Made by a program: the position numbers and the translations under genes. Below, piece by piece: positions 33,265 through 45,898 of a stretch of 64,000 nucleotides of DNA. Positions within the stretch are counted from its first letter, which is position 1; the number at the start of each line of letters is the position of its first letter. Origin of the DNA: Nocardioides panaciterrulae (GTDB lineage: Bacteria > Actinomycetota > Actinomycetes > Propionibacteriales > Nocardioidaceae). Location: the NCBI RefSeq assembly GCF_013409645.1, contig NZ_JACCBG010000001.1:3718001-3782000 (forward strand), in the 5' to 3' direction. The notes under the pieces were generated by a model. It was not told the DNA's origin. It did no database searches and was given only the letters and a program-made list of their open reading frames with translations.

Positions 33265-33957
33265 CTACCGCGCCAGCGCCCGGTGGAGGGCCACGATGCC
33301 GCCGGAGAGGTTCTGCCACTCCGGGCCGGCCCAGCCGGCCCGGGTGAGCAGGTCGGCCAGTCCGCGCTGGTCGGGCCAGGCGCGGATCGACTCCGCGAGG
33401 TAGACGTAGGCGTCCGGGGAGGACGAGACCGCCCGGGCGATCGGCGGGAGCGCCTTCATGAGGTACTCGATGTAGACGGTGCGGAACGGCGCCCAGGTCG
33501 GGTGGCTGAACTCGCAGACGACCAGCCGGCCCCCCGGCTTCGCGACCCGGCGCATCTCCTCGAGCCCCGCGACGGGGTCGACGATGTTGCGCAGCCCGAA
33601 GGAGATCGTGACCGCGTCGAAGGTGGCGTCCGCGAACGGCAGCCGGGTGCCGTCCCCGGCGGTGAAGGGCAGGTGCGGCTTCGCCTTCTTCCCGACCTGC
33701 AGCATGCCGAGCGAGAAGTCGCAGGGCACGACCGTCGCGCCGCGATCGGCGAACGGCTGGCTGGAGGTGCCGGTGCCGGCGGCGAGGTCGAGCACGAGCT
33801 CGCCCTGCTTCGGGTCGACCGCGTCGATGACCGCGTGGCGCCAGCGGCGGTCCTGACCGAGCGAGAGCACGTCATTGGTGACGTCGTAGCGCCGGGCCAC
33901 CGCATCGAACATGCGACGGACGTCGGTCGGCTGCTTGTCGAGCTCTGCACGGGCCAC
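33265..33957 (-). CDS. menG: Demethylmenaquinone methyltransferase
   Basis: A 230-aa class I methyltransferase of the UbiE/MenG family. The SAM-binding motif I is [44 protein letters not shown] and [14 protein letters not shown] are family signatures. It methylates demethylmenaquinone in the last step of menaquinone synthesis. It starts with GTG at 33957. It is separate from the other men genes in the window. Confidence 0.94.
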
Positions 33958-34100
33958 GCGCAGAGACTACGGGGGCGCGATCCCCGGCCCGCCATCGGCA
34001 ACGAAACGGTCACGGCCGCCGCGCCGTGCAACCGAATCCCCGGCTGAGGCGTCTCTCCGGCTGACACTGGAAGTTCATGACCCATCCTCCGGGGGACCCC

Positions 34101-35234
34101 ATGAGAGCACTGCGCGTCCTGCTGATGACGATCCTCGTCGTGGCCGGTCTCGGCGCCGCGGCGTACGGCGCCGGCGTCGCCGTCCAGCACTACGAGCACG
34201 GACGGGAGACGGCGTCCGCCCGCGATCCGCTGCCGGTCGCGCCCTCCTCGACCGGCGCGACCGACCCGACGTCGGAGCAGTCCTCCGCACCGCCGAGCAC
34301 ACCTCCGACGCCGAGCGAGACCGAGCGGCCCGACCCGCAGCCGGTGCTGGAGCCGGGTACCGAGGGCGAGCAGGTCCGCGAGCTCCAGTCCCGGCTGTTC
34401 CAGCTGGCCTGGCTGCCCGAGACCACCACCGGGAAGTACGACGCCACCACCCGCAAGGCCGTGGCCGGGTTCCAGACCAAGCGTGGGATCGAGGCGACCG
34501 GCGTCGTCGACCAGCACACCTGGCGACGCCTGGTCGCGATGACCGAGACGCCCACGCACGACCAGATGTTCAACGTCCTCCACCCCGGGCCGACCCTGCT
34601 CGGCCCCGGCGACGAGGGCACCGACGTGCGCGACCTGCAGGCCCGACTGCAGTCGATCCAGTGGCTCACCGGCGACGTGTCCGGCACCTACGACAGCACC
34701 ACCGAGCAGGCGGTCGAGGGGTTCCAGGCCAAGCGCGCCATCCCGGTCACCGGCGAGGTCGACCAGCGCACGATGGACCGGCTGCACGCGATGACCGTCG
34801 CCCCGACCCATGCCGCGATGTTCAACGAGGCGCCCGACACGGGCAGCAACACCCCCGGCACGCTCGACGCACGCTGCCGGACCGGTCGGGTGCTGTGCAT
34901 CGACAAGACCAGCCAGACGCTGCGCTGGGTCGTCGACGGCAAGGTGCTCAAGACCCTGGACGTGCGCTTCGGCGCGTCGTACAGCCCGACCCGCGAGGGC
35001 GTCTTCCACGTCTACAACATGGACGCCGACCACGTGTCGCACCTCTACGGCTCCGCGATGCCGTACTCGATGTTCTTCTCGGGCGGGCAGGCCGTGCACT
35101 ACTCCTCGGACTTCGCCGCCCGGGGGTACGCCGGGGCCTCGCACGGCTGCGTGAACGTGCGTGACTACGACGGGCTGGCCTGGCTCTTCGGCCAGGTCCG
35201 GGTCGGCGACGAGGTGGTCGTCTACTGGTCGTGA
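34101..35234 (+). CDS. L,D-transpeptidase with two peptidoglycan-binding domains
   Basis: A 377-aa envelope protein. It has an N-terminal signal or anchor helix (LRVLLMTILVVAGLGAAAYG), a Pro/Thr/Ser linker, two PG_binding_1 domains (EGEQVRELQSRLFQL... and EGTDVRDLQARLQSIQ...), and a C-terminal YkuD catalytic domain with SHGCVNVRDYDGLAWLF, including the nucleophilic cysteine. It forms 3-3 peptidoglycan crosslinks or attaches proteins. The ATG at 34101 follows CGGGGGA; the ATG at 34077 is an alternative adding eight residues. Confidence 0.92.
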   Translation: MRALRVLLMTILVVAGLGAAAYGAGVAVQHYEHGRETASARDPLPVAPSSTGATDPTSEQSSAPPSTPPTPSETERPDPQPVLEPGTEGEQVRELQSRLFQLAWLPETTTGKYDATTRKAVAGFQTKRGIEATGVVDQHTWRRLVAMTETPTHDQMFNVLHPGPTLLGPGDEGTDVRDLQARLQSIQWLTGDVSGTYDSTTEQAVEGFQAKRAIPVTGEVDQRTMDRLHAMTVAPTHAAMFNEAPDTGSNTPGTLDARCRTGRVLCIDKTSQTLRWVVDGKVLKTLDVRFGASYSPTREGVFHVYNMDADHVSHLYGSAMPYSMFFSGGQAVHYSSDFAARGYAGASHGCVNVRDYDGLAWLFGQVRVGDEVVVYWS

Positions 35235-35318
35235 CGGGGCCGGGCGGCGCTCGCGGCGGGGCCGGGGGCGACGCCGGGGCCGGGAGTGGTCTCTGTCACC
35301 GGCGTACGCTTCACCCTC

Positions 35319-36596
35319 GTGACGACCAGCGCGACCCCGGGCGAGCAGCCGCCCTCCCCCGGCCCGCTCGTGGCCCGCACGGTGCGGGTGGACCTGGCGC
35401 CGGAGCAGGTGGCCTCGCTCGTGGAGCTGCTGCCCGGCGACCGGCCCGTGACCTGGCTGCGCCGCGGCGAGGGACTGGTCGGCTGGGGGGTGGCGGCCGA
35501 GGTGCGCACCCACGGCGCCACCCGCTTCTCCGACGCCGCCAAGTGGTGGGCCGAGACCACGGGCCGCACGGTGGTGCGCGACGAGGTCAACGAGCCCGGC
35601 ACCGGGCTGGTCGGCTTCGGGTCCTTCGCGTTCGCCGACGAGCCCGGCGACTCGGTGCTGGTGGTTCCCGAGGTCGTGGTCGGCCGTCGCGGCGAGACCA
35701 CCTGGCTGACCACCATCGGCCCCGACGAGGTCGCCGTCCCCCAGCTGACGGTCGCTGACGAGCCGCCCGCGCCGGTCGACGTGAGCTTCGCCGACGGGTC
35801 CCTCGACGGCGAGCACTGGATGTCGGTGGTCGCGGACGCGGTCGCCCGGATCAACGCCGGAGACCTGGAGAAGGTCGTGCTGGCCCGCGACCTGGTCGCC
35901 ACGGCCGGGGCCCCGGTCGACGTCCGGTGGCCGCTGCGGCGGCTCGCCTCGTCCTACCCCATGTGCTGGACCTTCCACGTCGACGGCATGTTCGGCGCCA
36001 CCCCCGAGATGCTGGTGCGCCGCGAGCGCGGCCTGGTCACCTCCCGGGTGCTGGCCGGCACGATCCGGCGCACCGGCGACGACGAGCGCGACTTGGCACT
36101 CGCCGCCACGCTGGCGCGGTCGTCGAAGGACCTCGAGGAGCACGAGTACGCCGTCCGCTCGGTCGCCGACGCGCTCGACCCGCACTGCTCGTCGATGAAC
36201 GTGCCCGAGTCGCCGTTCGTGCTGCACCTGCCCAACGTGATGCACCTGGCCACCGACGTGGCCGGGGTCGTGCACGACGCGGCCACCGTCTCCTCGCTGC
36301 AGCTCGCCGAGGCGCTGCACCCGTCGGCGGCCGTGGGCGGCACCCCGACCCCGGTGGCGACCGCGCTGATCTCCGCGATCGAGGGCATGGACCGAGGCCG
36401 CTACGCCGGCCCGGTCGGCTGGATGGACGCCAGCGGCGACGGCGAGTGGGGCATCGCGCTGCGCTCGGCGTGGCTCGAGGGCCCGACCGTGCGGCTCTTC
36501 GCCGGCTGCGGCATCGTCGCGGACTCCGACCCCGAGGCCGAGCTGGCCGAGTCGCAGGCGAAGTTCGTCCCGGTGCGGGACTCGCTCTCCTCCTGA
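35319..36596 (+). CDS. menF: Isochorismate synthase
   Basis: A 425-aa chorismate-binding enzyme. It has GATPEMLVRRERGLVTSRVL, KDLEEHEYAV, the family segment HPSAAVGGTP, and FAGCGIVADSDPEAELAES. It converts chorismate to isochorismate, the first committed step to menaquinone (a role in siderophore synthesis is possible but has no local support). The GTG at 35319 is preceded by TACGCT about 10 nt upstream, suggesting a leaderless message; the GTG at 35286 is an alternative. The other men genes lie 6-12 kb downstream. Confidence 0.9.
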   Translation: MTTSATPGEQPPSPGPLVARTVRVDLAPEQVASLVELLPGDRPVTWLRRGEGLVGWGVAAEVRTHGATRFSDAAKWWAETTGRTVVRDEVNEPGTGLVGFGSFAFADEPGDSVLVVPEVVVGRRGETTWLTTIGPDEVAVPQLTVADEPPAPVDVSFADGSLDGEHWMSVVADAVARINAGDLEKVVLARDLVATAGAPVDVRWPLRRLASSYPMCWTFHVDGMFGATPEMLVRRERGLVTSRVLAGTIRRTGDDERDLALAATLARSSKDLEEHEYAVRSVADALDPHCSSMNVPESPFVLHLPNVMHLATDVAGVVHDAATVSSLQLAEALHPSAAVGGTPTPVATALISAIEGMDRGRYAGPVGWMDASGDGEWGIALRSAWLEGPTVRLFAGCGIVADSDPEAELAESQAKFVPVRDSLSS

Positions 36597-36660
36597 GCCC
36601 CCCTCGGGCAGGTGCCTGCGCCCGCGCCTTGGCGCGCTCTGAGGCACACGACCCGACGCG

Positions 36661-37296
36661 CTACAGGTCCTGCCCGTCGTCCCGCCGGACGTAGGCGAGC
36701 CCCTCCTTGGGCAGGAACGCCTCCATGTGTTGGTCGATGATCCGCAGCCCGGCCTCGGAGTAGACCCGGTCGTGGATCGCGAGGTTGCGGGGCGCCTTCA
36801 CGGCGCGGGCGAACTCGATCGCCTCGGAGGCCCGCATCCATGGCGCCGAGACCGGCACGCACAGCACGTCGACGGCCTGGCCGGGCCCGGTCAGCGCGTC
36901 GCCGGGGTGGTAGAGCGACTCCTCGCCGCAGGTCAGCACGTAGCCGGAGTTGTGGAAGCGGGGGAACTCGGGGTGGATCACCGCGTGCAGCTCGCCCACC
37001 GCGCGCGCGGGGATGCCGGGGTCGAACGACTCCCCCGGCGAGACCACCGTGACCCGCTCGGCCACGTCGGGCGCGTCCTCGCGGATCCGCGCCGCGACGT
37101 CGGCGATCGTGAACACCGGGGCGTCGGTGCCGCGCAGGTGCTCGGCCAGGTAGTGGTCGGGGTGCTCGTGGGTGATCAGCACCGCGTCGGCGCCGTCCAG
37201 CGCCTCGGCGTCGGTGAACATGCCCGGGTCCAGCACGACCGTGCGTCCCGCGTGCTCGATCCGGACGCAGGCGTGGCCGAACTTCGTGATCCGCAT
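36661..37296 (-). CDS. MBL-fold metal-dependent hydrolase (UlaG-like)
   Basis: A 211-aa metallo-beta-lactamase-fold protein with the metal motif THEHPDH (HxHxDH), DPGMF early, a later histidine in ELHAVIHPE, and an aspartate in YHPGDAL. It is compact and resembles the UlaG/YtkL-like branch rather than a beta-lactamase. The substrate is unknown. It starts at ATG 37296 and is convergent with menF. Confidence 0.9.
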   Translation of the reverse strand: MRITKFGHACVRIEHAGRTVVLDPGMFTDAEALDGADAVLITHEHPDHYLAEHLRGTDAPVFTIADVAARIREDAPDVAERVTVVSPGESFDPGIPARAVGELHAVIHPEFPRFHNSGYVLTCGEESLYHPGDALTGPGQAVDVLCVPVSAPWMRASEAIEFARAVKAPRNLAIHDRVYSEAGLRIIDQHMEAFLPKEGLAYVRRDDGQDL

Positions 37297-37422
37297 GCGC
37301 CCACCGTAATCACGTCGCCGCAGCCGTGCCCCGGCCGCAGGGCTCGGCGCTGGGCTGGTGGTGGGTCGTCTCCGGTCTCGTCCCCGGTCTGTCACTGGCC
37401 GGGTGATCCGTACGATCGCGGC

Positions 37423-37917
37423 ATGACCGCCACCGACGGGATCCGCATCCGGCGCGCCGTGCCCGAGGACGCCGAGGCGCTCACCGCACTGCACCTGGAC
37501 TGCTGGGACGACGCCTACACCGGGCTCATGCCCCAGGCCCTCCTGGACCAGCGACGCGCCGACGTGCCGCCCCGGGTCGAGAAGTGGCGCACGATCCTCA
37601 CCGACGGCGCCCCGACCTGGGTGGCCGAGGACGACGACGGCCTGGTGGGCTTCGTCAGCGCCGGGCCGGGCCGGGACAACGACGTCGACACCGACACCGA
37701 GGTGATGGCCCTCTACGTGCGTGCGGCCCGCTGGGGACACGGGATCGGCTACGCGCTGCTCGAGACCGCGATCGGCGACCGGGCGGCGTACCTGTGGGTG
37801 CTGCACGGCAACGACCGGGCGATCGGCTTCTACGAGCGCCAGGGCTTCCGGCTCGACGGCACCCGGGACGAGCACGACGAGGGCCTGCACGTGCGGATGG
37901 TGCGCGCGGGCACCTGA
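37423..37917 (+). CDS. GNAT-family N-acetyltransferase
   Basis: A 164-aa acetyltransferase. The N-terminal IRIRRAVPEDAEALTALHLD, the acetyl-CoA loop region YVRAARWGHGIGYALLE (a variant of RxxGxG) and NDRAIGFYERQGFRLDGT are typical. The acceptor is unknown. It starts at ATG 37423 and is divergent from the MBL-fold gene with a short shared upstream region. Confidence 0.9.
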   Translation: MTATDGIRIRRAVPEDAEALTALHLDCWDDAYTGLMPQALLDQRRADVPPRVEKWRTILTDGAPTWVAEDDDGLVGFVSAGPGRDNDVDTDTEVMALYVRAARWGHGIGYALLETAIGDRAAYLWVLHGNDRAIGFYERQGFRLDGTRDEHDEGLHVRMVRAGT

Positions 37918-38005
37918 TCCTCCGCGCGGCACCGCACAGCCGCGGGCCGCTGCCCGGCAGCCGCGCCGCCGCACACGGGCGACGCAGTCACCGCTCCGGG
38001 GCGCC

Positions 38006-39880
38006 TCACGCGGCCAGGTGGTGCACGTAGCACCACCGCCACTCCTCGCCCGGCTCGGCGGACTCCATGACCGGGTGCTGGGTGGTGCGGAAGTGTGCGG
38101 TGGCGTGCTGGCGCGGGGAGGAGTCGCAGCAGGCGACGTGCCCGCACGCCAGGCACTGGCGCAGGGCGACCCACTCGGTGCCCTCCTCCAGGCACTCCTG
38201 GCAGGCGGGGTCCTCGGCCGTGGCGGCCACGGCGTACTTCTCGAGGTGCTCGCAGACCGAGCCGCGCGGGCGCCGCGTGCGGTTGACCTCCCGGATCTGG
38301 TCGTGCTCCTGGTGGGCGAGCTCGAGCATCGACTCCTCGACGTCGAGGGTGGACAGGACGTCGCTGACCACCTCCGAGGCCACCTTGCCGGCGTGGCGGA
38401 TCTCCAGCACGCGCCGGCGCTCGGCGTCGAGCATCTCGTGCCGGATCCGGGCGTAGAGCTCGCTCGGGGACTCCTGGCCCTCGGTGGTGCCGAGCCGCTC
38501 CCAGGCCGCGAAGTTGCGCTGGTCGATGCGCTGCTCGATCAGCTCCCTCACCCCGTGCGGGTCGTCGTACTCCATCCGGTCCAGTGCCTCGTAGCCGGCC
38601 TTGGAGGCCTGCTGCAGCAGGGTGGCGCGGGCCAGGGCGTCGTCCATCGGGTCCGGCGGCGGCACCCGCAGCCGCCGCGCCACCCAGCCCAGCGACAGGC
38701 CCTGCACGAACAGCGTGCCCGCCACGGTGGTGAACGCGATGACGAGCAGCACCTCGCGGTGCGCGGCCTCCGCGGGGATGACGAAGGCCGCGGCCAGCGT
38801 GACGACGCCGCGCATGCCCGCCCAGCCGATGACGAACGTGAACGTCCACGGCGGCGTCACGCCGAGGTCCGGGTCGGGGCCGGGACGCACCAGCGCGTAG
38901 CGGGTGAGGAACACCCAGGCCATCCGCAGCGCCAGCACGCCGACCAGGGTGGCCGCGCAGGCCCCGATGATCCGCAGCAGCGGTATCGGGCTGTCCGCGA
39001 CGTCGGTGAGCAGCCACTGCGCCTGCAGCCCGATCAGCAGGAACACGGCGTTCTCGAGCATGAACGCGATCGTGCGCCAGTTGATCCCCTCCGCGATCCG
39101 GGACTGGGCGGTCTGCAGCACCGGCGCCCGGTGGCCGAGCAGCAGGCCGACGACGACCACCGCGATCACGCCCGAGGCCTTGATCTCCTCGGCCGCGAGG
39201 TACGCCGCGAACGGCACCACGAACGACATCCCGGTGTCCAGCACCGGGTCGGTGACGTGCCGGCGCAGCCAGCCGACCCCCAGGTAGCCGAGCGTGCCCA
39301 CCAGCACCCCGCCGGCGGCGGCCCACACGAAGTCGAGGCCGACCCGCCACGGCACCACGTTCTCCGAGCCGACCACGATGAGCGCGGCGGCGGTGCGCAG
39401 CGCGACCAGCGCGGTGGCGTCGTTGAGCAGCGACTCGCCCTCGAGGATCGTCACCACCCGGCGGGGCAGGCCGATCCGCCGGCCGATGGCGGTGGCGGCC
39501 ACCGCGTCGGGCGGGGAGACGACCGCGCCGATGGCCAGCGCCGACCCCCAGGTCACGCCGGGCAGCACCGCGTGCACGATCACGCCGATGCCGAGGGTGG
39601 TCACCACGACCAGGCCGACCGAGAGCAGCAGGATGGCCCGGCGGTTGGCGTTGAAGTCGACCAGCGAGCTCTGGATCGCGGTGGCGTACAGCAGTGGCGG
39701 CAGCAGCCCCAGCAGCACCACGTCGGACCCGAGGTGGAGCTCCGGGATCCCGGGCACGTAGCTGACCGCGATGCCGACCGCGATCAGCATCAGCGGGGCC
39801 GGGACGCCGAGCCTGCCGGCCAGGGCGGTCAGCGCCAGGACGCCGACGGCGAGCAGCACGAGCAGTGCGGCGATCTCCAC
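38006..39880 (-). CDS. Na+/H+ antiporter (CPA1/NhaP type) fused to a UBP-type zinc finger
   Basis: A 624-aa protein. Residues ~1-420 form a CPA1 antiporter with about 12 helices (GAVVSPPDAVAATAIGRRIG, EGESLLNDATALVALR). A cytoplasmic helical linker follows. The last ~85 residues (CEHLEKYA...C..C...CLACGHVACCDSS...H..H) match the UBP-type zinc finger (ZnF-UBP), with spaced Cys/His ligands ending in HPVMES. ZnF-UBP domains bind the C-terminus of ubiquitin in eukaryotes; the bacterial ligand is unknown. Proton-coupled sodium export is expected; the zinc finger may be regulatory. It starts at 39880. Confidence 0.9.
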   Translation of the reverse strand: MEIAALLVLLAVGVLALTALAGRLGVPAPLMLIAVGIAVSYVPGIPELHLGSDVVLLGLLPPLLYATAIQSSLVDFNANRRAILLLSVGLVVVTTLGIGVIVHAVLPGVTWGSALAIGAVVSPPDAVAATAIGRRIGLPRRVVTILEGESLLNDATALVALRTAAALIVVGSENVVPWRVGLDFVWAAAGGVLVGTLGYLGVGWLRRHVTDPVLDTGMSFVVPFAAYLAAEEIKASGVIAVVVVGLLLGHRAPVLQTAQSRIAEGINWRTIAFMLENAVFLLIGLQAQWLLTDVADSPIPLLRIIGACAATLVGVLALRMAWVFLTRYALVRPGPDPDLGVTPPWTFTFVIGWAGMRGVVTLAAAFVIPAEAAHREVLLVIAFTTVAGTLFVQGLSLGWVARRLRVPPPDPMDDALARATLLQQASKAGYEALDRMEYDDPHGVRELIEQRIDQRNFAAWERLGTTEGQESPSELYARIRHEMLDAERRRVLEIRHAGKVASEVVSDVLSTLDVEESMLELAHQEHDQIREVNRTRRPRGSVCEHLEKYAVAATAEDPACQECLEEGTEWVALRQCLACGHVACCDSSPRQHATAHFRTTQHPVMESAEPGEEWRWCYVHHLAA

Positions 39881-39968
39881 CGGGACATTGTGGCGGACCG
39901 GCCCATATCTGAGCCGCGTCGTCGTGCCGGCCCTCCCCCGGCAGCGAACCGGCCTCCCCGCCTCGGGA

Positions 39969-40098
39969 GGCCCAGCTCAACCCGGCGCGAGGCCCAGCTC
40001 AACCCGGCGCGAGGCCCAACTCAACCCGGCACGAGGCCCAACTCAACCCGGCACGGGGCCCAACTCAACCCGGCGCGGGGCCCAACTCAACGAGGTCA
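39969..40098. repeat. Repeat family A, locus 2: six tandem 22-bp units
   Basis: Six copies of the core GGCCCA(A/G)CTCA start at 39969, 39991, 40013, 40035, 40057 and 40079, an exact 22-bp period. The spacers read ACCCGGCRCGR. Read on the minus strand, the lysR stop codon is followed by CCTC and then GTTGAGTTGGGCC, the same arrangement as at 15418. The array sits between the nhaP-like start and the lysR stop. Confidence 0.92.
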
Positions 40099-40968
40099 GG
40101 GGCGCGGCCGGACCAGCCCGAGCTCGGCTCGCAGGTGCGGCAGCACCTGCACCAGCCGCGCGTCGACGTGGGGGCGGCTGACCATGCTCAGCACCAGCCG
40201 CTTGGTGAACGGCAGCTCGGCGACCTGCTCGCCGCTGCGGAGGCCCTCGGCGAGCGCCGAGCGCGGCACCACCGCCGGCTGCGCCTGCCGCCGCGCCATC
40301 GCGAGAGTGGCGCCGACTGTGGCGCCCCGGCGCGGTCGCGCTCCGAGGTCCGCGAGCCGGGTGTGCAGGTCGGCGGCTCCGAGGTCATAGGTGAGGTACG
40401 GCGTCGCGAGGCCGCGGAGCGGCTGCCGGCCGGCGCGCGGCCTCGGGACGCCCGTGGGTAGGAACAGCACCAGCGTGTCGCCCCCGACCTGGTGGACCTG
40501 CACGCCGCGCGGCAGCACCAGCTGGTCGGCGACGCACACGAAGGCCGCGTCCATCGTGCCCTCGCCCACCCACTCGACCAGCCGGTCGCCGTGGTCCACC
40601 CGCTGCCGCAGCGGCACGCCCTCGAGCGCGGCGTCCAGCACCGGGAACAGCGAGGCCGCGATCGAGTCGAACGAGCCCACGTGCAGCTCGCGCTCGGCGG
40701 TGGCGGTGCGGACCACGTCGTACACCCGGCCGAGGTGACCGAGGATGTGCTCGGCCTGGTGGGCCATCTCGCGACCCGCGACGGTCGGGCGGGCGCCTTG
40801 GGTGTCGCGGTCGAAGAGCACCAGCCCGATCCGGCGCTCGAGCCGGCCGAGCCGCTGGCTCGCGGACGGCTGGGAGACGCGCAGCTCCCGGGCCGCGGCG
40901 CCGACCGACCCGGTCCGCGTCACGGCGGCGACCAGCCGCAGGTCGTCGACCGACGGAGATGGGTCCAT
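40096..40968 (-). CDS. LysR-family transcriptional regulator
   Basis: A 290-aa regulator with an N-terminal winged HTH (LVAAVTRTGSVGAAARELRV, SQPSASQRLGRLERR) and a LysR substrate-binding domain. The ATG at 40968 lies within a perfect palindrome that has the T-N11-A form of LysR sites, so it probably represses itself and may control the divergent MFS gene 72 nt away. The effector is unknown. The stop runs into repeat family A. Confidence 0.92.
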   Translation of the reverse strand: MDPSPSVDDLRLVAAVTRTGSVGAAARELRVSQPSASQRLGRLERRIGLVLFDRDTQGARPTVAGREMAHQAEHILGHLGRVYDVVRTATAERELHVGSFDSIAASLFPVLDAALEGVPLRQRVDHGDRLVEWVGEGTMDAAFVCVADQLVLPRGVQVHQVGGDTLVLFLPTGVPRPRAGRQPLRGLATPYLTYDLGAADLHTRLADLGARPRRGATVGATLAMARRQAQPAVVPRSALAEGLRSGEQVAELPFTKRLVLSMVSRPHVDARLVQVLPHLRAELGLVRPRP

Positions 40969-40982
40969 AGGCGCAGCCTATG
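40966..40982. promoter_or_regulatory. LysR-box palindrome over the lysR start codon
   Basis: CATAGGC-GCA-GCCTATG is a perfect 7-bp inverted repeat. It contains T-N11-A (T40968 to A40980), the classical LysR motif. It covers the lysR start codon itself, an unusual position, and lies 58 bp upstream of the divergent MFS gene. Confidence 0.65.
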
Positions 40983-41040
40983 ACGCGTCGCTCGCTCCCG
41001 CCGGCTACCCTCGCCGGCCCGGCCCGTCGAGGCTGGGCGG

Positions 41041-42345
41041 GTGAGACTCCTCCGGCACCCGCTGACCCACGCGGTCTCGCTCCTGCTCGGCTCGGCCACC
41101 CAGGACCTCGCCTTCCGGCTCGCGCAGGTCGCCTTGCCGCTGGTCGTGCTCGGCAGCACCGGCTCGGTCGCCCTGACCGGCCTGGTCGCCGGGGCGGAGG
41201 GGGTGCCGGTGCTGCTGTCGCCGTGGTGGGCCCGGCGCGCCCGGCAGTGGGTCGGCAGCGGCCGACGGCTGGCCTGCCTCGCGGTCCTCGACGCGGCCGC
41301 GCTGAGCGTGGTGCCGGCCGCCGCCCTGCTCGGTGTCGTCTCGGCCGGTGTGCTCCTCGGGGCGGGGCTGCTGCTCGGCGTCGGGGAGACCCTGGGCGGG
41401 CCCGGCCGAGCCGCGCTGCTCGCCGAGGTCGGCGACCGGCTCGGCGCCGACCGCGCGATCACGCTGCTCACCTGGCAGGACCTGCTGCGGCGGGTCGGGA
41501 TGCTGGTCGGTCCGGGGCTGGGCGCGGCCGGCGTCGCGTTGGGGTTCACCACCGCACTGCTGTGGGTCCAGGCGGCCACCGTGCTCGTCGCCGGCCTGCT
41601 GGCCTGGCCGGTGCCGGGCGGCACACCTGCCCCGGCCGGGCCCGGCTGTCCGCCGACACCGGCGATCCGGTCCGCACTCGTCGGCCGCCCCGAGGTGCTG
41701 GTCGGCTGGGTGCTGCGCGGCACCAACTCCGCGGTCTGGTTCGCCTTCACGCTCGGGCTGGCCGTCCTGGGAGCACAGCAGGGACGACCCGGGGTGCTCT
41801 ACGCCTGGGGGATGACCGGCTACGGCGCCGGATCGGTCGTCGGCACCCTGCTCGCCGTCCCGGTCGTACGACGGGGCCGGGTGCTGGCGGTGGTCTCCAC
41901 CGCATGGACGGCGGCCGGTGCGGCGTGGGTGCTGATGGGGGTGTGGCCGACCCCGTTCGGGGCCGGGCTGGCCGCCGCGGCCGCCGGGGCGTCCGTCGTC
42001 GTCGGCATCACCGCCGTCAACGCAGCGATCACCCGGACCGCCGAGGGCGCGGTACGGCGCACCCTGCTCTCCGGGCAGGCGGTCGTGGTCAGCGCGTCGA
42101 GCTCGGTCGGGATGCTGCTCGGGGGCGCGGTGCTCGGCCTGCTCGGCGTCCGGTCGACGCTGGTCGCGTCGGGACTGCTGGTCAGCGCCGTCTCGCTGGC
42201 AGCCCCGCGGCTGGCTCGACGGTCAGGGGCGCAGGGCCCGGATCCGCGCGTCGAGATCGCGCCGGTTGTCGCGGCGGACCACGGCCTCGACGACCTCGAT
42301 CCCGCCGTTGGGGTTGGCCAGGGCGTGCTCGAGCTCCGGGAGTGA
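41041..42345 (+). CDS. MFS transporter overlapping menD
   Basis: A 434-aa major facilitator-type membrane protein with about 12 hydrophobic helices (ALTGLVAGAEGVPVLLSPWW, GVGETLGGPGRAALLAEVGD). The substrate is unknown; it resembles drug-efflux-like MFS proteins. It starts with GTG at 41041. The last ~40 codons run antisense to the 3' end of menD (42223-42345), and the corresponding C-terminal residues (VEIAPVVAADHGLDDLDP) look hydrophilic and unconserved. The stop may have been lost by drift or deletion in the convergent gap. The divergent LysR gene is a likely regulator. Confidence 0.85.
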   Translation: MRLLRHPLTHAVSLLLGSATQDLAFRLAQVALPLVVLGSTGSVALTGLVAGAEGVPVLLSPWWARRARQWVGSGRRLACLAVLDAAALSVVPAAALLGVVSAGVLLGAGLLLGVGETLGGPGRAALLAEVGDRLGADRAITLLTWQDLLRRVGMLVGPGLGAAGVALGFTTALLWVQAATVLVAGLLAWPVPGGTPAPAGPGCPPTPAIRSALVGRPEVLVGWVLRGTNSAVWFAFTLGLAVLGAQQGRPGVLYAWGMTGYGAGSVVGTLLAVPVVRRGRVLAVVSTAWTAAGAAWVLMGVWPTPFGAGLAAAAAGASVVVGITAVNAAITRTAEGAVRRTLLSGQAVVVSASSSVGMLLGGAVLGLLGVRSTLVASGLLVSAVSLAAPRLARRSGAQGPDPRVEIAPVVAADHGLDDLDPAVGVGQGVLELRE

Positions 42346-43839
42346 GTCGACCCGCCAGTGCGGTGTCCGGGTGGCCGCGCACAGGCTGGCGAGGTCCACC
42401 CCGTGCGGGGTGCCGAAGAGGGTGTCGAACGGCTCGGCGTACTCCTCGGCGCCCTGCTCCAGCATGGAGAAGATCGAGCCGCCGTCGTCGTTGACGACCA
42501 CGATCGTGAGATCCGGCCGGGCCTCGCGCGGACCGAGCACCAGGCCGCCCGCGTCGTGCAGGAACGTCACGTCACCCATCAGCGCCAGCGCCCGGCTGCT
42601 CCACGGCCGGCCCAGCGCGGCCCCGATCGCGGCGGAGACCGTCCCGTCGATGCCGGCGAGACCGCGGTTGGCGATCACCTTGCGGCGGTCGCCGACGGCG
42701 TAGCGCGGCACCATCAGGTCCAGGTCGCGGATCGGGCTGGAGGCGCCGACGTGCAGCAGCCCGCCGGCCGGCAGGACCCGGCTGACCGCGCCGGCCACGT
42801 CGTACGGCGTGAGGTCGGCCTCGGCGGCGAGCAGCGCGTCCAGCCGGCGCCCCACCGACCGGTCCGCGGTCCGCCACTCCTCGAGCCAGGCGGGGTCGTC
42901 GGTCCCGTCGGCCTCGACCGGCCCCTCGACGTGGTGGTCGACCGGGAACGGCCGCCGGGCCCAGACGCCCGCCGCCGTCGTCGTGACCACCTCGACGTCG
43001 TCGCGGGCCAGCAGCCGGGTCACCGGTCGCGACAGCGTGGGGTGGCCGGCGACCACCACCCGCTGGACCCGGTCGCCGAGGTCGGTGCCGAGCAACAGGC
43101 GGTAGCAGCGCACCGCGTTGGCGCCGGTGCGGGAGCCGCTGGTCGGCTCGGCCAGCAGCGGCCAGCCCGCCCGCTCGGCCAGGATCCGCGCGGGTGGCCC
43201 GGCGTCGTCGCCGGCCACCACCACCGTGCGCGGGCCGAGGGGCAGCCGCCGGGGCGTCCCGGCCCGGCCGCCCGGCCGCGTCGCACGCGGCTGGTCAGCG
43301 CGCCGCACGTCGGCGGGGCGCCAGCGACCGTCGGGCACCAGCGGCTCGTCGAGCTGGACGTTCCAGTGCGTCGGCCCGGCCGCCGCGGCGAGCCCGGCCG
43401 CGTCAACCTGCGCCGACTCGGCGAGGTCGACGGTGGCGACCAGGGGGCCGAGGATCCCGACCTGGTCGGTGGTCTGGTTGGCCCCGGTGCCGCGCAGCCG
43501 GGCCGGCCGGTCCGCGGTGACCGCCACCAGCGGGAGGCCCGTGTGTGCGGCCTCGAGCACGGCCGGGTGCAGGTTCGCCACCGCGGTGCCGGAGGTGCAC
43601 ATCACCGCCGCCCGGGCCCCGACCCGGGTCAGCCCGAGGGCCAGGAAGCCGGCCGAGCGCTCGTCGATGCGGGTGTGCAGCCGCAGCAGCCCGGCCGCGG
43701 CCGCGTCGTACGCCGCGAACGACAGCGGGGCGTTGCGGGAGCCGGGCGCGATCACCACCTCGGTCACCCCGGCCTCGACCAGCGCCGAGACGACCGCGCG
43801 GGCCAGCTCGGTGGCGCCGCCGTTCGACTGAGGGGTCAC
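42223..43839 (-). CDS. menD: 2-succinyl-5-enolpyruvyl-6-hydroxy-3-cyclohexene-1-carboxylate synthase
   Basis: A 538-aa TPP enzyme joining isochorismate and 2-oxoglutarate. It has VVIAPGSRNAPLS, the TPP glutamate region IDERSAGFLALGL, TSGTAVANLHPAVLEA, NRGLAGIDGTVSAAIGAALG and the Mg/TPP motif GDVTFLHDAGGL...VVNDDGGSIF. Residues ~139-147 (AESAQVDA region) are encoded by a copy of repeat family B, in a part of the protein that appears shorter than usual. The GTG at 43839 overlaps menC as GTGA. The last 123 nt are antisense to the MFS gene. Confidence 0.93.
   Translation of the reverse strand: MTPQSNGGATELARAVVSALVEAGVTEVVIAPGSRNAPLSFAAYDAAAAGLLRLHTRIDERSAGFLALGLTRVGARAAVMCTSGTAVANLHPAVLEAAHTGLPLVAVTADRPARLRGTGANQTTDQVGILGPLVATVDLAESAQVDAAGLAAAAGPTHWNVQLDEPLVPDGRWRPADVRRADQPRATRPGGRAGTPRRLPLGPRTVVVAGDDAGPPARILAERAGWPLLAEPTSGSRTGANAVRCYRLLLGTDLGDRVQRVVVAGHPTLSRPVTRLLARDDVEVVTTTAAGVWARRPFPVDHHVEGPVEADGTDDPAWLEEWRTADRSVGRRLDALLAAEADLTPYDVAGAVSRVLPAGGLLHVGASSPIRDLDLMVPRYAVGDRRKVIANRGLAGIDGTVSAAIGAALGRPWSSRALALMGDVTFLHDAGGLVLGPREARPDLTIVVVNDDGGSIFSMLEQGAEEYAEPFDTLFGTPHGVDLASLCAATRTPHWRVDSLPELEHALANPNGGIEVVEAVVRRDNRRDLDARIRALRP
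43400..43423 (-). repeat. Repeat family B copy inside menD
   Basis: This 24-nt stretch is identical to the unit found three times behind cysA (7291-7376). Here it is read in frame on the minus strand as part of menD (LAESAQVDA). An exact 24-nt match between an intergenic repeat and a coding exon is very unlikely by chance. Confidence 0.85.
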
Positions 43840-44849
43840 GAGCGGTCATCCTGCCGCAGCCGGGCGCCGGCCGCGCGCACCTCGGCCAGCCGGGCCGCCC
43901 AGTGCGCCACCCGGTCCGGTGTCGCGGCCAGCCGGTCGAGCGCCGACTCGTCGACGACCGGCACGCGCACCGGCAGCGCCCCGTCCACCGGCAGCAGCGG
44001 CTCGGTGACCACGTCGGCGGTGAGCAGCTGGACCGTGGCCAGGCCGCAGGCGTAGGGCAGCTCGGGGAGTGCGGCCGCCAGCGCCACCCCGGCCGCGATC
44101 CCGACCGAGGTCTCCAGCGCGGAGGAGACGACCACGGGCAGCCCGATGTCCTCGGCGATGCGCAGGCACGCCCGGACCCCGCCCAGCGGCTGGACCTTGA
44201 GCACGGCCACGTCGGCGGCCTCGAGGTCGCGCACCCGGTAGGGGTCCGCCGCGCGCCGGATCGACTCGTCCGCGGCGATCGGCACGTCGACGGTACGGCG
44301 GACCCGGGCCAGCTCCTCGACGCTCGCGCACGGCTGCTCGACGTACTCCAGCCCGGCCGCGGCCCGGTCCAGCACCCGGATCGCGGCGACGGCCGTGTCG
44401 ACGTCCCAGCCGCCGTTGGCGTCCACCCGGATCCGCCCGGCCGGGCCGAGCGCGTCCCGGACCGCCTCGAGCCGGGCCTGGTCGTCGGCGAGCGTCTGAC
44501 CGGGCTCGGCGACCTTGACCTTGGCGGTCCGGCAGCCGCCGTCGAGGGCGATCGCGTGCGCGCGCTCGGCGTCGACGGCCGGCACGGTCACGTTGACCGG
44601 GACCCGGTCGCGCACCGGGTCGGGCCAGTCGCCCGCGGCCGCCTCCTCGGCGCACCGCAGCCACGGGGCGGCGACGGCAGCGTCGTACTCCAGGAACGGG
44701 CTCCACTCCCCCCAGCCCACCGCGCCCGACGGTCCGCGGCCCCGCAGCAGCACGCCCTCGCGGACCGTGAGGCCGCGGAAGCGGGTGCGCATCGGGATCG
44801 ACCAGACCGTGATCGGGTCGTCCCCGCCGACCGAGCTCATCGAGCTCAT
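43836..44849 (-). CDS. menC: o-Succinylbenzoate synthase
   Basis: A 337-aa enolase-superfamily enzyme that dehydrates SHCHC to o-succinylbenzoate. It has the catalytic lysine in TAKVKVAEPG, metal ligands in RVDANGGWD, YVEQPC and AADESIRR, and a second lysine in VAVLKVQPLGG. The ATG at 44849 overlaps the menE stop as ATGA. Confidence 0.94.
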   Translation of the reverse strand: MSSMSSVGGDDPITVWSIPMRTRFRGLTVREGVLLRGRGPSGAVGWGEWSPFLEYDAAVAAPWLRCAEEAAAGDWPDPVRDRVPVNVTVPAVDAERAHAIALDGGCRTAKVKVAEPGQTLADDQARLEAVRDALGPAGRIRVDANGGWDVDTAVAAIRVLDRAAAGLEYVEQPCASVEELARVRRTVDVPIAADESIRRAADPYRVRDLEAADVAVLKVQPLGGVRACLRIAEDIGLPVVVSSALETSVGIAAGVALAAALPELPYACGLATVQLLTADVVTEPLLPVDGALPVRVPVVDESALDRLAATPDRVAHWAARLAEVRAAGARLRQDDRS

Positions 44850-45898
44850 GCGAGCGCCCGCAGCCGCAGCCGGTCCGGCTTGCCGTTCTCCAGCAGCGGG
44901 ATCTCCTCCAGCACCACCAGCGAGCGCGGCGCCCACGAGCGGGGGTGCGCCCCGCCGACCCAGGAGCGCAGCTCCTCCAGCGTGGGCGCGGCGCCGGGCC
45001 CGGGCACGACGTAGGCCACCACCCGGTGCCCCCACTCCTCGTCCGGCACCCCGAGCACCTCGGCGGCCACCACCCCCGGGTGCTCGCGCAGGCGTACGGC
45101 GACCGCCGGTGTCGGCACGTTCACGCCGCCACTGACCACCACGTCGTCGACCCGCCCCAGCACGTGCAGCCGGCCGTCCTCGTCGAGCCGGCCCGCGTCG
45201 GAGGTGAGGAACCAGCCGTCCTCGAGCACCGCGGCGGTCTGCTCCGGATCGTCCTCGTAGCCGGCGAACAGTGTGGGGCCGCCGATCCGGATCCGGCCGT
45301 CGCGGCCGATCGCGAGCGCCACCCCGTCGAGCGGGTAGCCGTCGTACACGCAGCCGCCGGCGGTCTCCGAGGAGCCGTAGGTCGCCACCACCCGGACGCC
45401 CTCCTCCGCCGCCCGGGCCCGCAGCGCGGGGTCGGCCGGTCCGCCGCCGAGCAGCACGGTGTGGAAGCTGCGCAGCGCGACCACCTGCGCGGGGTCCTCG
45501 AGCATCCGGTGCAGCTGGGTCGGCACCAGCGAGACGAACAGGCCGACGCCCTCCGGGGTCGAGGAGACCAGCGCCGCGGTCGCCGCGACGAAGGAGGGGT
45601 GCTCCTCGGCGAGGGCGGGCGCGTGGCCGGCGGCCAGCGACCGGCACGCGACCTGCAGCCCGGCGACGTACGCGACCGGCAGCGTCAGCAACCAGCGCCC
45701 GCCGGCTCCGAGCCGGCGCTCGGTGGCGCGGACCGAGGCCAGCACCGCGCGACGCGGGAGCACCACCCGCTTGGGCCGGCCGGTCGAGCCCGAGGTCTCC
45801 ACGACCAGCGGCCGGGGCTCCTGCGGAGCCGCCAGCCAGTCGCCGAGCGCCGCCACGACGTCCGCGGTCGGGCCGGCGACCGGACGCAGGTAATCCAT
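44846..45898 (-). CDS. menE: o-Succinylbenzoate-CoA ligase
   Basis: A 350-aa acyl-adenylate-forming enzyme, shorter than typical ~450-aa MenE but complete. It has the phosphate loop ETSGSTGRPKRVVL, the motif ATYGSSETAGG, SDAGRLDEDGRLHVLGRVDD, and the C-terminal catalytic lysine in LENGKPDRL. The ATG at 45898 is used. It heads the menE-menC-menD operon, with overlapping starts, and is divergent from an MFS gene 37 nt away. Confidence 0.93.
   Translation of the reverse strand: MDYLRPVAGPTADVVAALGDWLAAPQEPRPLVVETSGSTGRPKRVVLPRRAVLASVRATERRLGAGGRWLLTLPVAYVAGLQVACRSLAAGHAPALAEEHPSFVAATAALVSSTPEGVGLFVSLVPTQLHRMLEDPAQVVALRSFHTVLLGGGPADPALRARAAEEGVRVVATYGSSETAGGCVYDGYPLDGVALAIGRDGRIRIGGPTLFAGYEDDPEQTAAVLEDGWFLTSDAGRLDEDGRLHVLGRVDDVVVSGGVNVPTPAVAVRLREHPGVVAAEVLGVPDEEWGHRVVAYVVPGPGAAPTLEELRSWVGGAHPRSWAPRSLVVLEEIPLLENGKPDRLRLRALA

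Follow-up and report, generated by a model that had tools for sequence, protein, structure and literature searches.

A CPA1-type antiporter of Nocardioides panaciterrulae ending in a bacterial ZnF-UBP domain with an altered pocket, a candidate regulatory module

A stretch of 64,000 nucleotides of the Nocardioides panaciterrulae genome (hereafter the window) encodes a CPA1-type cation/proton antiporter that terminates in a ZnF-UBP domain (Table 1). The most plausible role of this zinc finger is that of a cytosolic regulatory module of the antiporter, plausibly answering thiol stress, a reading to which we assign a probability of roughly 0.6. That the finger regulates the antiporter is what we infer; the redox signal and its direction are speculative.

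Table 1. Features of the fused antiporter gene, in positions of the window
Feature	Position	Strand	Basis
CPA1-type cation/proton antiporter with C-terminal ZnF-UBP, 624 aa	38006..39880	(-)	ORF, Pfam and NCBIfam; GTG start, stop codon 38006-38008
Antiporter transmembrane domain PF00999, residues 15-402	38675..39838	(-)	Pfam, alignment of 46 fusions, Foldseek
Cytosolic helical tail, residues 403-535, final long helix with conserved ExES-like motif	38276..38674	(-)	Alignment, full-length model
ZnF-UBP domain, residues 543-624	38009..38254	(-)	Pfam, alignments, AlphaFold2, structure comparison
zf-UBP Pfam match, residues 560-619, with altered-pocket R574, D586, S588, W614, W616, Y618	38024..38203	(-)	Pfam

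The protein is best explained as a CPA1 Na+(K+)/H+ antiporter, for which ion exchange is predicted. Its Na_H_Exchanger match in Pfam (residues 15-402, E 9e-50) reaches 170 bits against a cut-off of 26.2, and the closest NCBIfam antiporter model, TIGR00831 (a_cpa1), gives 265.6 bits, just below its cut-off of 279.6. An ND ion-binding pair is the mark of CPA1 antiporters; here the N153-D154 pair and R357 are invariant in the antiporter domain of 46 aligned fusions, as are E515 and E516 of the tail helix. The best Foldseek matches of the full-length model are SOS1, SLC9C1, NHE9, NHE1 and NhaP. The protein thus shares the transmembrane fold and the ND pair with a_cpa1, NhaP, SOS1 and NHE proteins but, unlike them, ends its tail in a ZnF-UBP domain. 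The full-length model (mean pLDDT 87.1) consists of the antiporter, a helical tail (residues 411-535) and, beyond a weakly predicted linker, the zinc finger, the placement of which is uncertain (mean pLDDT 63 and 59 over residues 531-550, 51 and 44 over residues 611-624). In the maximum-likelihood tree, the closest named relatives are mostly from Nocardioides and other Nocardioidaceae. A LysR-type gene lies nearby at 40096-40968 (-), and the genes around both (window 33265-44936) look like what we take to be menaquinone genes; men and nuo neighbors recur in about ten of 51 fused loci, all from close relatives.

The UBP zinc finger that the original prediction placed at the end of a CPA1 antiporter was confirmed by Pfam, by fold prediction and by same-genus regions, 12 of 12 of which hold antiporter and zf-UBP in a single open frame. 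The match to PF02148 lies above the curated cut-off (38.9 bits against 22.7, E 1e-9) and is the only zf-UBP match in the genome (4.27 Mb, one contig). The domain belongs to the zf-UBP family. Its proposed limits (38006-38270) were right, with the domain itself starting at about C543 (window 38254). The Cys/His pattern also held: the eight ligands C560, C563, C576, C579, C584, H592, H596 and H602 are invariant both in the 46 aligned fusions and in an 88-row alignment, and the outer-site C543 and C617 are invariant in the 46 fusions. Among 199 distinct bacterial domains, counted at ungapped positions, H592 and H596 are present in all, H602 in 198, and C560 and C563 in 183; the search pattern itself demands C576, C579 and C584, and one row lacking the pattern (L081) was left out. 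The probable zinc-binding sets, assigned by homology, are C560, C563, C584 and H592; C576, C579, H596 and H602; and C543, H545, C617 and H620, a grouping into three sites that we assume by following HDAC6. A second class of stand-alone zf-UBP proteins of about 117 aa (L002, L003, L005-L008 and similar, mostly from the same genus) has WFWDY in place of WRWCY, hence lacking one outer-site Cys, and has a conserved C-terminal tail.

Structure prediction and comparison with ZnF-UBP, the check proposed alongside the original prediction, placed the domain within this fold. The AlphaFold2 model, built on the 88-row alignment, has a mean pLDDT of 91.9 and a pTM of 0.81, and its best solved match by Foldseek and VIA-align is 2ida (Z 11.6, 84 residues aligned, 44% identity), followed by HDAC6 (Z 10.4), USP33 (9.8), USP49 (9.6), USP5 (8.2) and USP16 (8.0). 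The description of the finger as eukaryote-like was misleading, as it belongs to a bacterial subfamily of which a member, 2ida, was released in 2006. That entry, RPA1320 of Rhodopseudomonas palustris, shares the GCCD-SP--HAT-HF core of the subfamily but is a free protein of 102 aa, named hypothetical in the PDB, with no transporter fusion. The fingers of HDAC6, USP16 and USP5 share the fold, the zinc core and the pocket Trp and Tyr, whereas their clamp Arg is an Asp here and identity is 19-33%.

Genomic neighborhoods link the zinc finger to antiporters well beyond this locus. In 44 of 59 genomes of the genus, that of N. panaciterrulae included, the zf-UBP match falls in a reading frame 600 residues long or longer. 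Eighty named loci, taken as the best of 592 candidates by similarity to the N. panaciterrulae domain and so a sample that leans its way, comprise 37 CPA1 fusions and one CPA2 fusion, 26 loci where CPA1 is encoded no more than 1 kb away (14 divergent, seven convergent, five tandem), three with CPA at 1-6 kb, three with only a TrxR-like gene (two adjacent, one near) and ten with neither, at least five of which end at contig edges. An unpicked sample of the phylum (396 genomes) contains 129 zf-UBP places in 95 genomes besides N. panaciterrulae. At least five of these are fused to a CPA1 gene, at least 15 lie within 500 bp of one, at least three at 0.5-2 kb and at least two at 2-5 kb, all lower bounds, since the comparison covers 96 antiporter matches with at most three per genome. 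Fewer than one place within 500 bp would be expected by chance, as estimated for at most three scored antiporters per genome and genome sizes from about 2 Mb upward. Among the antiporter matches listed, the other 104 of the 129 places lie elsewhere, and the domain therefore has other jobs. Viewed from the antiporter side, 18 of the best 20 matches besides the one studied here are linked to zf-UBP (five fused, 13 within 500 bp), the exceptions being in G169 and G108.

On the antiporter tree, the CPA1 fusion arose once, in the lineage of this protein. In a quick maximum-likelihood tree of 115 antiporter domains, drawn from 142 entries after removal of open or short frames, same-place duplicates and two broken frames (L091 and L098), the 60 fused antiporters, including that of N. 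panaciterrulae, group together to the exclusion of all others (SH-aLRT 100), and sister to them are six antiporters with a separate zf-UBP gene immediately downstream in the same direction, at 9-60 bp between tblastn matches. The remaining 49 antiporters have zf-UBP within 1.5 kb in 36 cases and not in 13, some of the 13 being loci with just 1.5 kb of flank. Unfused antiporters stop right after a conserved DLEE-type helix, and fused ones add a short linker and a complete zinc finger. The simplest account would be stop loss between two tandem genes. The zinc finger tree, with 76 columns, is not resolved (5 of 97 branches starred).

The domain is also attached to other membrane proteins. Pfam matches identify single CPA2+TrkA_N+zf-UBP proteins at three loci (L197 4962-7031, L198 3081-5240 and L199 4968-7133), a CPA2+zf-UBP protein without TrkA_N at L148, and an LtrA membrane protein fused to zf-UBP at L203 (3753-5255). 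The CPA2 and LtrA fusions are taken to be independent because their partners belong to different families. In L197, L198 and L199, one CPA2 antiporter would carry two regulatory domains, TrkA_N (RCK-type) and zf-UBP. Plasmids contribute 86 records with the domain; 12 of these were examined, two of them without annotation. A protein annotated as a cation:proton antiporter on a Deinococcus ficus plasmid also bears zf-UBP. In Rhizobium, two Agrobacterium and Rhodococcus records, zf-UBP is followed by a gene for an FAD-dependent oxidoreductase, preceded in the Rhodococcus record by J-domain, CbpM, ClpB and thioredoxin genes, and in a Burkholderia record it is flanked by flavin genes on both sides. 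The Hymenobacter record has no annotated flavin neighbor, yet tblastn detects a piece of one; the Nostoc, Oscillatoria and Streptomyces plasmid records have no flavin-type neighbor of zf-UBP.

A flavoprotein gene also accompanies some of the CPA1 fusions. Among 96 relatives surveyed, eight genomes of the genus (G012, G017, G019, G022, G030, G045, G046 and G053), a minority of the 59, have a thioredoxin-reductase-like flavoprotein gene (Pyr_redox_2) directly after the fusion; both are encoded on one strand, and 36-152 bp separate the flavoprotein gene from the zf-UBP match. The named loci L092 (6330-7991), L094 and L140, and also L040 (8302-9960), have it in the same place, and these four group on a single branch within the fusion clade. 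The protein has about 550 aa, the first ~230 of which have no Pfam match. A further 14 zf-UBP places in the 96 relatives, unfused to CPA1, have a flavoprotein gene within 1 kb. A flavoprotein combining a receiver domain with Pyr_redox_2, encoded at L230, has homologs in 17 of a set of 42 loci that lack CPA1 (14 named and 28 hand-picked). Stand-alone zf-UBP genes lie near a TrxR-like flavoprotein gene at L230, L206, L207, L210-L212 and L242, accompanied at L207 by a cNMP-binding histidine-kinase-type gene and at L242 by J-domain, CbpM, ClpB and thioredoxin genes. The N. panaciterrulae genome has no match to the adjacent-type flavoprotein at E 1e-60, and the window has none, so that, if a flavoprotein matters, another protein must serve there.

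The pocket of the domain is altered at a defining position. Position 586, the homolog of USP5 R221, USP16 R84 and HDAC6 R1155, is Asp in 198 of the 199 bacterial domains and Asn in one. Because one of the patterns used to fetch the named loci contains Asp586, the domains that came instead from profile, family or protein searches were counted separately, and R574 and D586 are present in 108 of 108 of them, still within one bacterial subfamily. In a gapless alignment of the bacterial domain profile with the USP16 core, D586 lies opposite an Arg, which on the present reading of the alignment would be R84. L573, R574, C585 and S588 are fixed in all 199 domains. Other elements of the pocket are retained: W616 and Y/F618 are the counterparts of HDAC6 W1182 and Y1184. 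Of 177 tails, 176 match a pattern that permits W, Y or F at 616; 171 of these 176 have Trp there, and residue 618 is Tyr in 108 and Phe in 65 of them. The Gly-Gly pocket proposed earlier is therefore present in part, its Trp and Tyr/Phe kept and its clamp Arg gone, and since the Trp and Tyr are kept, a pocket of different chemistry may persist.

The Asp at this position weighs on the proposal that the finger recognizes a free Gly-Gly C-terminus on a small modifier. The original prediction named Pup-like and ThiS-like proteins and a link between ion transport and protein turnover; MoaD/CysO-like modifiers and a link to sulfur transfer would be further versions of the same idea. The fold and the conserved pocket Trp and Tyr would suit such a reader, and the invariant R574, elsewhere in the domain, could stand in for the clamp Arg. 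However, Asp in place of this Arg argues against a free Gly-Gly ligand. RLRGG binding is abolished in HDAC6 R1155A/Y1156A (PMC12000391), binding of the GG-ending modifier ISG15 is weaker in HDAC6 R1155A/Y1184A, USP16 R84A/Y117A serves as an ISG15-binding-deficient variant (PMC10424181), and R221 and Y261 are key residues of USP5 (PMC3247260). The fold does not suffice either, as the USP13 and USP33 fingers are ZnF-UBP folds reported to bind no ubiquitin (PMC3247260). Judged by its residues, the domain does not appear to belong among the ubiquitin-tail readers, because the clamp Arg, one of their defining residues, was tested and is absent. Candidate modifiers fare unevenly. The genome encodes one Pup, with the C-terminus GGQ. 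Pup occurs in one of 14 control genomes (Corynebacterium glutamicum) and zf-UBP in two (Deinobacterium and Methanosarcina), the two never together, though N. panaciterrulae carries both; with this mismatched distribution and C-terminus, Pup was rejected as a general ligand and the suggestion of a Pup-like ligand is not upheld. Three ThiS-family proteins of the genome end in VAVAGG, PAVAGG and AGGAA, and ThiS is present in 11 of the 14 controls, both zf-UBP carriers among them; with GG-ending ThiS-family proteins in the genome, a ThiS ligand is conceivable, but nothing points to it. The protein ending in AGGAA (L053 1492-1770) has its GG followed by two Ala, as if trimming precedes use. Overall, a Gly-Gly reader is very unlikely.

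Two further explanations bear on the same conserved residues. The finger could be a docking adaptor with no redox sensing of its own, its conserved face recruiting a single shared partner, either a protein (the flavoprotein, for instance) or a small ligand, to whichever protein the finger is fused to. L573, R574, S588 (199 of 199) and D586 (198 of 199) are kept alike in fused, adjacent and other contexts, as one shared site would lead one to expect, and a flavoprotein gene adjoins many zf-UBP genes. Yet no third gene is common to the 51 fused loci, where synteny is confined to close relatives, and neighboring antiporters share no C-terminal motif, their ends varying (REAG, NRD, RLEI); we regard an adaptor as somewhat unlikely. 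A purely structural role, in which a zinc-stabilized cap would aid folding, dimerization or stability of the tail, accords with the structural nature of many zinc domains and with relatives whose antiporter is complete without a fused finger. A free protein encoded by a divergent or convergent gene would be rare for a cap, however, and the fixation of non-zinc residues also speaks against it, making this role unlikely.

A built-in regulator of the pump is more likely than a ubiquitin reader, because the finger is a separate next-door gene in many relatives. The zinc finger would once have been a small protein of its own, its gene next to that of the antiporter, an arrangement that persists in many relatives, before the two genes fused once in this lineage. 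As a regulatory module, it would most likely gate transport by binding to the helical tail in the cytosol or detaching from it, by analogy with the cytosolic domains of SOS1, NHE3 and KefC. The input would most plausibly be thiol/oxidant (or zinc) stress, a thiol/oxidant signal being the most economical choice because the finger neighbors antiporters and a TrxR-like gene, sometimes both. Loss or modification of a zinc-thiolate site, or a ligand of the altered pocket, could then release or apply the brake. The conservation of the Cys residues is typical of any zinc site and is no mark of redox sensing.

Control through cytosolic parts is a theme among cation/proton antiporters. Tails of other CPA antiporters carry cNMP-binding, CHP-binding or RCK parts, and the titles of structural entries for auto-inhibited SOS1 and for NHE3-CHP1 point the same way. 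In KefC, RCK domains binding AMP and glutathione hold the antiporter, which needs the NADH-binding protein KefF for full activity (PMC11150392). PtsN inhibits YcgO, a CPA1 antiporter, by binding to its cytoplasmic region (PMC11808508). The working proposed here would most resemble KefC/KefF, the glutathione-gated CPA2 K+/H+ system, with a cytosolic domain holding the antiporter, thiol stress as the input and an accessory protein; the CPA2+TrkA_N+zf-UBP fusions and the flavoprotein gene that follows some CPA1 fusions extend the parallel. In contrast to KefC, the N. panaciterrulae protein is a CPA1 antiporter without RCK, a role for glutathione is unsupported, the redox input is speculative, and its genome lacks a match to the adjacent-type flavoprotein at the threshold given above.

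In the literature covered, which left most subscription journals out of scope, no stated function for bacterial ZnF-UBP proteins was found. Burroughs and colleagues reportedly surveyed prokaryotic treble-clef domains in 2011, and the fusions may well have been noted before. ZnF-UBP proteins of bacteria are widespread, with one structure public since 2006. Their conserved partnership with an antiporter, sometimes joined by a flavoprotein, offers a concrete handle, namely antiport as the activity that the domain should change. Tentatively, and with less confidence than in the regulatory role itself, the bacterial ZnF-UBP could be a general module for reading stress, its pocket rewired with R574/D586 instead of the ubiquitin clamp, mounted on several ion transporters and paired with a TrxR-like flavoprotein, and the actinobacterial trio of antiporter, finger and flavoprotein could be a glutathione-free counterpart of Kef gating. 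This bacterial branch lacks the Gly-Gly clamp, a point relevant to how eukaryotes acquired it; if the broader proposal is true, eukaryotic ubiquitin-tail readers would derive from, or be cousins of, an ion/redox-control module.
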